From positions 62,001 to 126,000 of the forward strand of contig JAUQPL010000003.1 in assembly GCA_030550395.1 (NCBI GenBank): 64,000 nucleotides of DNA. Reading direction: 5' to 3'. The translations under genes were made by a program, and so were the position numbers. This DNA is from Bacteroidota bacterium (GTDB lineage: Bacteria; Bacteroidota; Ignavibacteria; Kapaibacteriales; HRBIN21). Positions within the stretch are counted from its first letter, which is position 1. Every line of letters begins with the position of its first letter. Below, in pieces: positions 4,337-7,860 of this stretch. The notes under the pieces are model-generated. The model made no database searches and had not been told where the DNA came from. It saw only the letters and a program-made list of their open reading frames with translations.

Positions 4337-4738
4337 TTAAGCTGTTGTTGTGTCCGGAGGTGCAGTTGGAAGGAGGGCCACTACAACGGCAACGGCGTGG
4401 GTGGCCGAATGGGAAAGGGACAGGTGGAAGGCATAATGAGCATACTGGCGCTGAAGCTGCCCGGACAGGCGGAGTTCGGGTTTGCCGGATTGACCATTGA
4501 CGACGCTAATATCCTTCCAGCGGCAAGGAGCACGCATACCAGTTCCAATCGCCTTGCTCAGCGCTTCCTTGGCTGCGAAGCGAGCGGCATAGTGGGAGGC
4601 TCGGTGTGCTCCGAAGCGATCGCAGTATTGCCGTTCCGCGTCGGTAAAGATGCGCCGGAGGAAGTGCTCTCCGTAGCGCTTGATGGCGGCCTCGATCCGC
4701 TGAATTTCCACGATATCAATACCGATGCCGGCGATCAT
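4337..4738 (-). CDS. acpS: Holo-[acyl-carrier-protein] synthase
   Basis: AcpS transfers the 4'-phosphopantetheine arm of CoA to a serine of acyl carrier protein, activating fatty-acid synthesis. From the chosen start the protein is 133 residues. It carries both Mg-binding signatures: GIDIVEIQRI with Asp8, and RFAAKEALSKAIGTG with Glu58. The start at 4738 is preferred because its ATG overlaps the sirtuin stop as ATGA, indicating translational coupling. An upstream ATG at 4762 would add eight residues lacking homology. It is the last gene of the leftward operon beginning at 6730. Confidence 0.93.
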   Translation of the reverse strand: MIAGIGIDIVEIQRIEAAIKRYGEHFLRRIFTDAERQYCDRFGAHRASHYAARFAAKEALSKAIGTGMRAPCRWKDISVVNGQSGKPELRLSGQLQRQYAHYAFHLSLSHSATHAVAVVVALLPTAPPDTTTA

Positions 4739-5508
4739 GGTGTTGGGATTTCTTGGCGGCATTGCTGGAGGCGGCGGAGGAGTTCTGGTAGTGCGTGGGC
4801 TGCTGTTGTGCGAAGGATGATATCGGCAGCAAGGCTGAGCTCGCTCGGAGAGGGGTTGATTTCAATGATGGTGGCTCCAAAGGTCTTTGCCCGCCAGACC
4901 AGACCAGCGGCAGGGTAGACTTCTCCTGAGGTTCCGATACAGAGCAGGAGGTTGCAGCGTTCAACCGCACGTTCAGCGGCGGCAAAGACTTCTTCAGGTA
5001 GGGGTTCGCCGAACCAGACAACCGCTGGGCGGACCCGTCCGCCGCAGACGGGGCATATGGGGGCGGTGTCTTCCGGTAGCGTATCGGCGCTATAGGGTCT
5101 GCCGCACCGATGGCAGCGGTTTTCCAAGAGTGTACCGTGGAGCTCCAAAACATGGCGGCTTCCAGCCCGGTGGTGGAGTCGGTCGACGTTCTGCGTGATA
5201 ACCGTGAACTCCTCAAAGTACGGCTCCATTGCTGCCAGAGCATGGTGACCGGGATGGGGGGAAGCTGCTTCAATGACCCGTCGGCGTTGTTGATACCATG
5301 CCCAGACGCGATCGGGGTCGCGTTCGAAAGCTTCAGGGGTTGCCAGCTCCTCGGGGCGAAATTGTTCCCACAGTCCACCAGGGTCGCGGAAGGTAGGAAT
5401 ACCACTTTCGGCCGACATACCAGCGCCGGTAAAGGCTACAACTTGCCGGGCTTGGCACAGCGGCCGTGCCGCCTGGTCTAGCAGAGTATGTATGTCCGCC
5501 GTAGGCAT
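4735..5508 (-). CDS. cobB: SIR2-family NAD-dependent deacylase (class III sirtuin, CobB-like)
   Basis: The enzyme removes acyl groups from protein lysines using NAD. In its 257 residues I see the NAD motif GAGMSAESGIPTFRD (28-42), TQNVDRLHHRAGS (105-117), catalytic His124, and a zinc ribbon with Cys132, 135, 152 and 155. Tyr72 and Arg75 form the Y-x-x-R signature of class III sirtuins (SIRT5/CobB type), which bind succinyl or malonyl lysine, so desuccinylase/demalonylase activity is likely. The ATG at 5508 lies inside the 3' end of the ubiquitin-like gene. A GGAGGAGG purine run abuts it directly, so initiation may depend on coupling. The gene overlaps acpS by four bases. Confidence 0.93.
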   Translation of the reverse strand: MPTADIHTLLDQAARPLCQARQVVAFTGAGMSAESGIPTFRDPGGLWEQFRPEELATPEAFERDPDRVWAWYQQRRRVIEAASPHPGHHALAAMEPYFEEFTVITQNVDRLHHRAGSRHVLELHGTLLENRCHRCGRPYSADTLPEDTAPICPVCGGRVRPAVVWFGEPLPEEVFAAAERAVERCNLLLCIGTSGEVYPAAGLVWRAKTFGATIIEINPSPSELSLAADIILRTTAAHALPELLRRLQQCRQEIPTP

Positions 5509-5744
5509 CCTCCTCCAGGGGCTAAGAGCAACAAATCCCCCGCCTTCGTCCCCCGTTGGGCAAGGCTGTCGGTCGGGAGGTATTCAAAGTCCTGCGTCAG
5601 ATTGTACAACCCCACGCTCTCCGGAGGAGTCCACCATTGTAATTGCTGCATGAGTTCTGCCAGCAGTTCTTTTACCGGTGTGTGCGAGGGGAGGCAGACT
5701 CGTACAATCTGCCCGGAGGAGCCTCGACATACGAACACTTCCAT
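5478..5744 (-). CDS. Small ubiquitin-like (beta-grasp, YukD/EsaB-like) protein
   Basis: This 88-residue protein starts at an ATG that overlaps the upstream stop as TGATG. The pattern of a short strand pair (MEVFVCRGSSGQIVRVCLP), a helix beginning PVKELLAELM, an LYNLTQDFEYLP stretch and the ending SLAQRGTKAGDLLLLAP resembles beta-grasp ubiquitin-like proteins of the YukD/EsaB kind. The fold is followed by a triple glycine and nine more residues, CLRRTYILC. The glycine codons double as the purine-rich stretch before the sirtuin ATG, so the two genes overlap by 31 bases. No E1-like, JAB or type VII secretion gene is visible nearby. The function is unknown and the fold call is by eye. A start at 5759 would add five residues. 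Confidence 0.6.
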   Translation of the reverse strand: MEVFVCRGSSGQIVRVCLPSHTPVKELLAELMQQLQWWTPPESVGLYNLTQDFEYLPTDSLAQRGTKAGDLLLLAPGGGCLRRTYILC

Positions 5745-6730
5745 CACAGGCTCTGCCATAGGAGCTGACCGGTAAGGTGTCGGAGAGTCGTGCGGAAAGC
5801 GGATACAGAGTCTTCGGTCACCAAGGCCTCTGTGCTCCGCAGGAGCTCCGGGATGACGGTATCGCCCTTCCGGCGGAGTCGGTAGAGTCCTAACTGTAAC
5901 TGCCCACCGTTCGGGATGCGGTAGAAGGAGCCGCTCACGATGTGTTCGACCCCCATTCGTTCCAGAAGCTGAAGCTCCAGCGAAGTCGGAGGATTGTAGT
6001 TTTCCGGTTCCAGCCATTTGCCTGTGGCATAGATAGAGTCACGGGTGTCTATGTCGCAGACGACAAATCGTGGGTGGAAGCGGGCCGTATCAATGATGTT
6101 CAAGACAGCGTCGTAAGAGGTCACAGTCTTCTGGGCAAAAAGCTGCCAAGGGGGAAGGTGCGGGTCATCTACATAGGCGATACTACTGACGGCCAATACG
6201 GCTGCGGGGTAAACGCGGAATGGAGGTTCCCGCTGAGCATAGAGCATGCTATCGCCCAACGCTGTGGCAAGGGCACGCTGCGCCGCCTCCAAGAGGACGG
6301 GGTCATAGAGGGGCTCATCGGAATCCCGGCGCGCATAGCGTGCCAAAGCATAACCGACACCGCGCTGCTCGGGTTCAAAGGAGGGACCCCAGCGAAGGAC
6401 TACCTCTACTCGGACCAAGTGGACGAATCGTTCTGCTAAGGCAAAACAAAGGGCAGAACAGTTCAACCGGTGGGCAACTTCCAACGCCGTCGGGGGAATC
6501 CCTTCCCGTGACAGTGCGCTCACGATGGAATCCCGAACCGCAACGGGGACGACACGGTACCTCTCTGTCAACTCCAGCGCCAATGTCAGTGCAGCCTCCA
6601 GCTTGGTGGGGCTGAGGTGGTGGAATCCTTTCCCCATGCGCGCCTGCGCAATGAGGACCACTGCCACCGAATCCTTCCCCTGTGCCCAGCTAAGGGAAAG
6701 CGTACTGGCAAGGAGAACAACCCAGCGCAT
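5744..6730 (-). CDS. Exported protein with two TolB-N/CsgG-like modules, function unknown
   Basis: This 328-residue protein has a cleavable signal peptide (hydrophobic core then SWAQ at about 14-17), suggesting a periplasmic or envelope location. The segment RMGVEHIVSGSFYRI followed by LQLGLYRLR resembles the alternating pattern of TolB N-terminal, CsgG or FlgO-like domains. An earlier segment, RLNCSALCFALAERF followed by VRVEVVLR, looks like a weaker copy. No catalytic motif is evident. It heads the leftward operon with the ubiquitin-like, sirtuin and acpS genes and is divergent from pdxA across 116 bases. The domain assignment is tentative. Confidence 0.6.
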   Translation of the reverse strand: MRWVVLLASTLSLSWAQGKDSVAVVLIAQARMGKGFHHLSPTKLEAALTLALELTERYRVVPVAVRDSIVSALSREGIPPTALEVAHRLNCSALCFALAERFVHLVRVEVVLRWGPSFEPEQRGVGYALARYARRDSDEPLYDPVLLEAAQRALATALGDSMLYAQREPPFRVYPAAVLAVSSIAYVDDPHLPPWQLFAQKTVTSYDAVLNIIDTARFHPRFVVCDIDTRDSIYATGKWLEPENYNPPTSLELQLLERMGVEHIVSGSFYRIPNGGQLQLGLYRLRRKGDTVIPELLRSTEALVTEDSVSAFRTTLRHLTGQLLWQSL

Positions 6731-6846
6731 CCGAACTACAGTATGTGGGAAGCCACAGACGCCGAGCGAGCGGATGTCATTGTAAGCCGTACACGTTGCC
6801 GTGATACTGGGCGTCTATCTAGCTGGCGCGGACTTGGGGTAGGCGT

Positions 6847-7860
6847 ATGCGCATTGTATGTACAGTGGGGGATAGCAACGGTATTGGCTTGGAGGTATGG
6901 GCGAAGGCTTTGTATGCGCTGCGTCGGCACAGTGTGTGGCGGGAGGTGACCCTGGCATTGGTTGCTCATCCCCGTACGGTTGCCGAATATGCGCAAGCAT
7001 GCGGTTTGCCGCTCCGTGTCCGGGATACCATTTTCCAGATTGGGCAGCTCCGGGGGGAGCTCATTGCCTGTTCCACCTACGCCCCCGTGCGATGGGGCTA
7101 CCCGGATCCGGTGGCAGCTCAGCAGGCGTGGGAAGCTTTAGACATTGCCCTTGAACTGGCACAACGAGGGCAATTGGATGCCGTTGTGACGTTACCGATT
7201 ACCAAGCATGCTCTCTACCTGTTGGGCTGGCGGTATCCAGGGCAGACGGAGTATCTGGCGCATCCGTATGCCAATTACAGCCCTATTATGCTCTTCGTTG
7301 CCGATAGCTTCCGAGTGGCATTGCTGACAACCCATGTTCCCCTGCGGCAGGTCCCTCTTGCCGTGACAGCTGAGGGGATTTGCAGTTTCGTCTGCCGGTT
7401 GTGCGGGGCTTTGGAGATTGATTTTGGCTTAGAGCATCCGCGAATGGCATTGCTGGGGCTGAATCCACATGCTGGGGAAAATGGGATGCTGGGCAAAGAG
7501 GAACTGGGATGGCAAGCCGTTTTGGAGCGTTTGCGGCAGGAGGGCTATTTTCTGGAAGGTCCCTTCGCTGCCGATGCTTACTTTGGACGCCAGAGGTGGC
7601 GACAGTATGATGTCACAATTGCACTCTACCACGACCAAGGGCTTGTTCCCTTCAAGTTGCTGGCACAGGGCAAGGGAGTAAACGTCACGCTCGGTTTGCC
7701 CTTTGTACGGACTTCACCTGACCACGGCAGTGCATACGATATTGCTGGTCAAGGTGTTGCGGATCCGAGCAGTATGCAGCAAGCGCTACTACTGGCCGCC
7801 GAGCTTGTCCGCCGGCGATATGCCTGTGGTATGCTCCCACTGCGGCGGAGGGCTCTCTGA
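6847..7860 (+). CDS. pdxA: 4-hydroxythreonine-4-phosphate dehydrogenase
   Basis: PdxA oxidises 4-phospho-hydroxythreonine in the DXP-dependent pathway to pyridoxal phosphate. The 337-residue protein has the family length. It carries the three metal-binding histidines expected: His163 (TTHVPL), His208 (LNPHAGENG) and His262 (YHDQGLVPFK). The TSPDHGSAYDIAG motif is near the C-terminus. The N-terminus MRIVCTVGDSNGIGLEV is typical. A GGGGTAGG stretch precedes the ATG. The stop overlaps the mtnA start as TGATG, so the genes are translationally coupled. Confidence 0.93.
   Translation: MRIVCTVGDSNGIGLEVWAKALYALRRHSVWREVTLALVAHPRTVAEYAQACGLPLRVRDTIFQIGQLRGELIACSTYAPVRWGYPDPVAAQQAWEALDIALELAQRGQLDAVVTLPITKHALYLLGWRYPGQTEYLAHPYANYSPIMLFVADSFRVALLTTHVPLRQVPLAVTAEGICSFVCRLCGALEIDFGLEHPRMALLGLNPHAGENGMLGKEELGWQAVLERLRQEGYFLEGPFAADAYFGRQRWRQYDVTIALYHDQGLVPFKLLAQGKGVNVTLGLPFVRTSPDHGSAYDIAGQGVADPSSMQQALLLAAELVRRRYACGMLPLRRRAL

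Follow-up and report, generated by a model that had tools for sequence, protein, structure and literature searches.

A predicted ubiquitin-fold protein encoded beside a sirtuin and AcpS in a Kapaibacteriales genome, and its possible origin in an iron-sulfur gene module

A four-gene row on the minus strand

The DNA considered here, referred to as the window, is a stretch of 64,000 nucleotides from a Bacteroidota bacterium of the class Ignavibacteria and order Kapaibacteriales (assembly GCA_030550395.1, contig JAUQPL010000003.1, positions 62,001 to 126,000). Inspection of its open reading frames places four genes on the minus strand between positions 4337 and 6730, namely those of a TolB-like protein, a small ubiquitin-fold protein (Ubl), a sirtuin and the holo-ACP synthase AcpS, and it is the Ubl and its relation to these neighbours that is at issue. 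The Ubl and sirtuin genes overlap by 31 bases, an ATGA junction joins the sirtuin gene to that of AcpS (whose ATG lies at 4738), and a TGATG junction joins the TolB-like gene to the Ubl if the latter starts at the ATG at 5744. This arrangement is as a preliminary description of the sequence had given it, and its coordinates are reproduced. The same order recurs in all six genomes of the window genus (counting G005, where a contig end cuts the TolB-like gene), in two of the three genomes of family f8 and in the sole genome of family f10, so the row is more than a chance arrangement. Promoter and terminator scans of the locus gave no signal above shuffled sequences; the four genes probably share a transcript but do not form a single pathway.

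The ubiquitin-fold protein

The Ubl gene occupies positions 5478-5759 of the minus strand when read from its upstream ATG at 5759, which gives 93 residues, whereas the ATG at 5744 gives the 88-residue form described initially. Five homologues from the same genus carry valine or isoleucine codons (ATC, ATC, GTA, ATT and GTA) at the position equivalent to 5744 and all have a Met a little further upstream (MAEPV, MAEPV, MAESI, MAAAV and MGGT); for this reason the true start is probably that at 5759. With this start, the Ubl gene and the TolB-like gene have 16 bases in common. Purifying selection acts on the Ubl, as indicated by a nonsynonymous divergence (dN) of 0.26 and a synonymous divergence (dS) of 1.15 against the homologue of G003; dS was 2.2 or saturated in the other four comparisons.

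An AlphaFold 2 model built on an input of 19 sequences reached a mean predicted local distance difference test score (pLDDT) of 87.1, with the last nine residues below 50, and displays strands at residues 5-12 and 18-24, a helix at 29-39, and further strands at 49-53 and 76-81. Foldseek returned 626 matches of this model to the Protein Data Bank (PDB) at E<=0.001, headed by 8tyx and followed by ubiquitin and SUMO chains, and the best rows of a VIA-align comparison with ubiquitin-fold structures have Z of about 12. By its model the protein is thus predicted to have the ubiquitin (beta-grasp) fold and to belong to that superfamily, at only 10-21% identity to the ubiquitin-fold chains among the structural matches listed. 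The nearest Pfam profile is YukD (PF08817; E 1.6e-4), with 22.8 bits against a cut-off of 27, and 5 of 19 family members match it at E<=1. NCBIfam yielded nothing for the window protein and weak matches for other members, the best being EccD at 0.041 in 2 of 19, and a search of solved structures with the family profile gave weak matches alone (the Ubl domain of Ddi1, 0.1). YukD was not among the structural matches listed or in the sequence search of the PDB, which proves nothing. The fold proposed at the outset is borne out by the model; the profile score does not place the protein in the YukD/EsaB family. An SGxIxR core together with a cysteine in the C-terminal tail forms a pattern peculiar to this family, and a second cysteine, in the first strand, is present in 22 of the order's 23 sequences whose N-terminus is complete, G001 being the one without it.

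Two other origins were considered and set aside. A phage source was rejected on a single weak and partial phage match (E 0.2), with no PHROG assigned to the window protein and three stray PHROG matches of other members at E>=0.34; a part in a defence system was rejected after PADLOC gave no match in 19 members.

Glycines and a cysteine in the tail

The preliminary description pointed to a triple glycine nine residues from the end of this protein (residues 77-79 of the 88-residue form). In the 93-residue form it opens the GGGC motif at residues 82-85, encoded at positions 5505-5516 of the minus strand by GGA GGA GGA TGC. The three glycine codons directly precede the sirtuin ATG (5506-5508), for which they are Shine-Dalgarno-like, and the cysteine codon TGC overlaps that ATG. 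Among the 24 complete tails of the order (G120, cut by a contig end, was left out), the cysteine is present in all 24, a GG in 18 and GGG in just five; GGG was accordingly dropped as a conserved element. The GG is also missing in G003, a member of the window genus, and throughout f5, f16 and f63. A tail reading Cys-His-Lys (CHK) is shared by 16 of the 24 and by all five Ubls of f16, often as GGxCHK among the relatives, and in the window genus the His is lost in 6/6 and the Lys in 5/6. Beyond these, the five tails of f16 all have the cysteine and none the GG, the six of f63 have neither, and a C-terminal cysteine closes three of the four f14 sequences, whose rows were partly read by eye.

Since a start codon in that frame leaves no choice but a TGN codon, the overlap alone could fix the cysteine in the window Ubl. 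The cysteine is, however, equally invariant in f9, f6 and f16, whose Ubl genes have no sirtuin gene behind them and whose glycine codons vary. On these comparisons the tail cysteine is best taken as a feature of the protein itself, and the third glycine and the residues after the cysteine in the window Ubl are probably by-products of the gene overlap. The caveat raised early on, that the residues after GGG may be neutral, thus agrees with their position within the overlap. Some members are extended by other means: the Ubl of G014 carries a long His-rich C-terminal tail, and those of two f16 genomes (G489 and G498; L078 4469-4981 and L079 2991-3512) have long His/Asp-rich N-terminal extensions that suggest metal binding.

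The sirtuin, AcpS and the TolB-like protein

The sirtuin gene (positions 4735-5508, minus strand) encodes 257 residues that match PF02146 at 2.8e-53 and exceed the cut-off of NF001753, with the CobB equivalog NF040867 below its cut-off. Its motifs include GAGMSAESGIPTFR, WYQQR, TQNVD, HG and two CxxC pairs; WYQQR presumably represents the Y-x-x-R acid-binding signature of desuccinylases. The PDB relatives of this protein include archaeal Sir2 and SIRT5 structures along with 1s5p, which we take to be E. coli CobB. Judged by its motifs and profiles, it is an NAD-dependent protein deacylase of the predicted SIRT5/CobB type (class III), with the desuccinylase/demalonylase activity named earlier as a putative one. 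The AcpS gene that follows (4337-4738, minus strand; 133 residues) is equally as first named, with matches to PF01648 at 5.6e-23 and to TIGR00516 at 109.2 bits against a cut-off of 59.8.

The TolB-like gene (5744-6730, minus strand) encodes 328 residues. No Pfam family matches the window protein at E<=0.1, and one of 14 members matches TolB_N at 0.066. Its AlphaFold 2 model (pLDDT 91.8) comprises two alpha/beta domains of the TolB-N/LpoB/PelC/CsgG type, with partial Foldseek matches to LpoB (4.6e-5; template modelling (TM) score by target 0.65), TolB (6.2e-5) and CsgG (2.5e-3), and also to PelC and GNA1162; ribosome-assembly chains among the matches (root-mean-square deviation (rmsd) >20) were taken as chance. 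The model thus lends support to the TolB/CsgG-like designation of the preliminary description. An N-terminal hydrophobic segment, recognized by eye, suggests that the protein is exported. The TolB-like proteins of f1, f6, f8, f10 and f16 are homologous.

Distribution and gene neighbourhoods

The Ubl is present in 25 of the 123 genomes of the order, in 35 of 391 sampled genomes of the class and in 10 of 395 sampled genomes of the phylum. A scan of contigs with one protein added the perspective of 10 loci, comprising seven metagenome-assembled genomes (MAGs) of Kapabacteria/Kapaibacterium, Bacterium HR21 and two other bacterial MAGs. Neighbours were analysed at 40 Ubl loci, 25 in the order and 15 outside it; contig ends close to the Ubl in G005, G119, G120 and G121 blur these counts. 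An adrenodoxin-type [2Fe-2S] ferredoxin gene (Fer2) lies upstream at 15 of the 40 loci, a gene for a thioredoxin-like ferredoxin (TLF) downstream at 14, and both at 13, while the TolB-like gene lies upstream at 16 and the sirtuin and AcpS genes downstream at 12. Fer2 is assigned by Pfam (PF00111) and its PDB relatives are of the adrenodoxin type (1i7h, 2mjd). The TLF is nearest to Suc_Fer-like and 2Fe-2S_thioredx, below the Pfam cut-offs, and matches the [2Fe-2S] ferredoxin structure 1f37 at 4e-33, presumably the Aquifex thioredoxin-like ferredoxin Fd4.

These neighbours sort by family. The Fer2-Ubl-TLF cassette is found in f14 (4/4) and f63 (6/6). In f16 the TolB-like gene accompanies the Ubl in 5/5, Fer2 in 4/5 and the TLF in 4/5, all of them together in 3/5. 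The full row of the window is found in f1 (6/6) and f8 (2/3), the TolB-like gene and Ubl in f6 and the third f8 genome, and Ubl, sirtuin and AcpS in f5 (3/3). The single f10 genome (G014; L062, about 4617-7834) bridges two contexts that are otherwise separate, with Fer2, the TolB-like gene, Ubl, sirtuin and AcpS all on one strand. A PolX-like gene, named by eye, stands before Fer2 in f14 as well as in G014, which again suggests that these regions are one locus. In f63 the cassette (L080, L081, L084, L087 and L088) lies, again as judged by eye, between UvrD-like/methyltransferase genes and endonuclease III-like genes, in most cases also MqnD-like ones.

The sirtuin-AcpS pair has a distribution of its own. 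A sirtuin (E<=1e-20) is present in 94 of the order's 123 genomes, AcpS (E<=1e-4) in 118 and the two together in 92; the sirtuin lies directly upstream of AcpS on one strand in 59 of these 92, a widespread pair. Adjacency is seen in 13 of 16 Ubl-bearing genomes and in 46 of 76 Ubl-less genomes with both genes, and the latter number indicates that the pair is independent of the Ubl. The 25 Ubl-bearing genomes of the order divide into 12 with the Ubl followed by sirtuin and AcpS, one (G010) with the pair elsewhere, three with a sirtuin outside such a pair, and nine without a sirtuin at E<=1e-20; G120 gave no sirtuin match, and the downstream side of its Ubl is cut off. No third partner is shared by all 12 sirtuin neighbourhoods inspected at a distance from the Ubl (in G010 and in 11 Ubl-less genomes, with plus-strand open reading frames read by eye), a survey in which the open reading frame filter did not pick the sirtuin of G034. 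Gene-order conservation is real for the four-gene row within the window genus, f8 and f10; the pair adjoins just 12 of the 40 Ubl loci. A Ubl tree of 38 of these loci requires two changes to account for the sirtuin-linked rows; the joining is undated on this tree, and one origin is possible.

Conjugation machinery

A protein of the ThiF/E1 family exceeds the profile cut-off in none of the six genomes of the window genus, the best being a sub-threshold match of 19.1 bits in G004, whereas such a protein is found above the cut-off in 33 of the 34 other Ubl-bearing genomes (33/40 overall); as a control, the same profile was positive in 12 of 14 known genomes. A search of the window genome for a JAB-type processing protease gave a single Prok-JAB match, RadC. 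The conserved terminal GG that characterizes ubiquitin, ThiS and MoaD is not a constant of this family either, being present in 18/24 tails of the order, 0/5 of f16 and 0/6 of f63. E1-dependent modification or sulfur carriage was rejected for the window genus on the ThiF and JAB results, and E1-type activation is refuted there unless an unrecognised activating enzyme exists. The Ubl was also rejected as a substrate of lysine deacylation, because three of the six Ubls of the genus have no lysine and thus would offer no side chain to a lysine deacylase.

Comparison with known systems

YukD/EsaB (PF08817) is likewise a small standalone ubiquitin fold and supplies the closest Pfam profile, but the window Ubl falls below its cut-off and differs in the conserved tail cysteine and SGxIxR core. 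The likeness to RnfH and TmoB, non-conjugating standalone Ubls encoded beside electron-transfer genes, is one of gene context, and the partners here are instead one adrenodoxin-type and one thioredoxin-like [2Fe-2S] ferredoxin. Iyer et al. (2006; PMC1779556) assign RnfH and TmoB to operons for electron transport and YukD to operons for the export of ESAT-6, and another source (PMC1949818) speaks of such Ubl families as interaction adaptors or as assembly or stability factors. The best Foldseek match, 8tyx, is a bacterial Ubl from a Ubl-deubiquitinase complex (TM 0.71 by query, rmsd 2.1), but the identity is 16%, and the window genome has no E1 above the cut-off and no JAB protein other than RadC. 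Finally, the Bacteroides fragilis ubiquitin (8hm2, a C-terminal cysteine mutant) shares the fold and, according to the title of its entry, a C-terminal cysteine; it is given as 63% identical to human ubiquitin (PMC3352274), as against the 10-21% of the window Ubl to the chains listed.

Interpretation

The reading that we tentatively favour is that the window protein belongs to a new non-conjugating Ubl family from a small iron-sulfur or redox module, which became linked, at a later stage, with an unrelated pair of sirtuin and AcpS genes. It builds on the predicted fold, the gene order, the distribution, the tail pattern and the lack of an E1 above the cut-off. The Ubl would not be attached to other proteins, at least in the window genus, and would most likely work by non-covalent docking, as is thought for TmoB, RnfH and YukD. 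It could serve as an accessory of a module with a putative redox role, whose older members would be the adrenodoxin-type and thioredoxin-like [2Fe-2S] ferredoxins and the probably exported TolB/LpoB-like protein, with the conserved tail cysteine as a likely functional residue, perhaps a thiol or a metal ligand. The ferredoxin genes are absent from the window lineage, where the TolB-Ubl pair stands before the independent and widespread sirtuin-AcpS pair. Several observations weigh against this proposal, for which gene order is indirect evidence. Order-wide profile searches place Fer2 (E<=1e-12) in one of 123 genomes, G014, and find neither Fer2 nor the TLF in the window genus (0/6 each). TLF-family matches (E<=1e-6) occur in 64 of the 123 genomes, many as parts of long frames, and in just five of the 25 Ubl-bearing ones (G013, G014, G021, G048 and G053), so that the TLF often occurs where there is no Ubl, and the Ubl often where there is no TLF. 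All 11 Ubls of f9 have none of these neighbours, three of them on short or truncated contigs, and f63 keeps the ferredoxin cassette with the tail cysteine in 0/6. With the genus devoid of both ferredoxins, f9 of the neighbours and f63 of the cysteine, the link to ferredoxins is drawn from lineages other than that of the window and does not prove a role for the Ubl there. An opposite-strand sirtuin does lie about 4.3 kb from the Ubl in two f9 genomes, G013 and G048.

The functional link suggested in the preliminary description, by which the Ubl would act as regulator, substrate or modifier in a circuit of the desuccinylase-type sirtuin and AcpS within acyl carrier metabolism and lysine acylation, draws on the one-strand Ubl-Sir-AcpS row that 12 of the order's 25 Ubl-bearing genomes have, spread over four families, and on the sirtuin adjoining the Ubl in 12 of the 16 such genomes that own one. 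The adjacency of sirtuin and AcpS in 46 of the 76 genomes that have both but no Ubl, the nine Ubl-bearing genomes without a sirtuin, the 28 of 40 loci where the Ubl is not beside the pair, the lysine-free Ubls in half of the genus and the absence of E1 matches above the cut-off there make such a circuit quite improbable, and the earlier interpretation survives in its identities and fold and not in its circuit. That the Ubl might serve as a modifier or sulfur carrier of the ubiquitin or ThiS/MoaD kind, with an E1 acting on its glycines and the residues beyond GGG removed, is the least credible of the alternatives: the ubiquitin fold of the model, the GG of 18/24 tails and the ThiF-family proteins of 33/40 genomes are as it would predict, but the window genus has no ThiF match above the cut-off, RadC is the only Prok-JAB match of the window genome, GG is wanting in G003, f5, f16 and f63, and the cysteine beyond the GG is itself conserved. 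Scarcely more probable is a true YukD/EsaB accessory of type VII secretion, for which the best Pfam profile, the five members matching YukD and the two weakly matching the type VII protein EccD would speak; the sub-threshold score, the family's own tail cysteine and core, and the failure to spot any type VII gene on visual inspection of the neighbours at about 25 of the 40 loci, where no profile or genome-wide EssC/WXG100 search was made, argue otherwise. A small protein for metal binding or delivery, passing metal to ferredoxins or other proteins by way of the first-strand cysteine, the tail Cys-His and, in some members, His-rich extensions, is a less remote but still unlikely explanation. 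It would suit the near-constant first-strand cysteine, the CHK tails of the order (16/24) and f16 (5/5), the His-rich termini of G489, G498 and G014 and the ferredoxin neighbours, but sits poorly with the missing first-strand cysteine of G001, with f63, which lacks both cysteines yet keeps its ferredoxins, and with the loss of the tail His in every member of the window genus and of the Lys in five.

An extension of the favoured reading, which we regard as rather doubtful, would make the new Ubl family, whose gene is fixed in some lineages between those of two structurally different [2Fe-2S] ferredoxins, a dedicated iron-sulfur delivery or electron-transfer adaptor that acts by docking, with the tail cysteine and not a terminal glycine as the working residue of many members, and that was re-wired in Kapabacteria to NAD-dependent deacylation by its operon joining with the sirtuin and AcpS. 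A literature search that mostly left subscription journals aside found no description of a Ubl between these ferredoxins, none of a sirtuin in Kapabacteria and, judged by titles, none of a Ubl in Ignavibacteria.

Significance

Non-conjugating bacterial Ubls are few and poorly understood, and a Ubl flanked by two [2Fe-2S] ferredoxin genes would add a new family to those of the docking type. The compact Fer2-Ubl-TLF cassette, which three families of the class possess, offers a small system in which to study the role of a Ubl in electron transfer. The locus also counsels caution in that a GG near the C-terminus is not a sure signal of conjugation: the triple glycine of the window Ubl coincides with the Shine-Dalgarno-like sequence of its neighbour, and it is the cysteine that is conserved instead.

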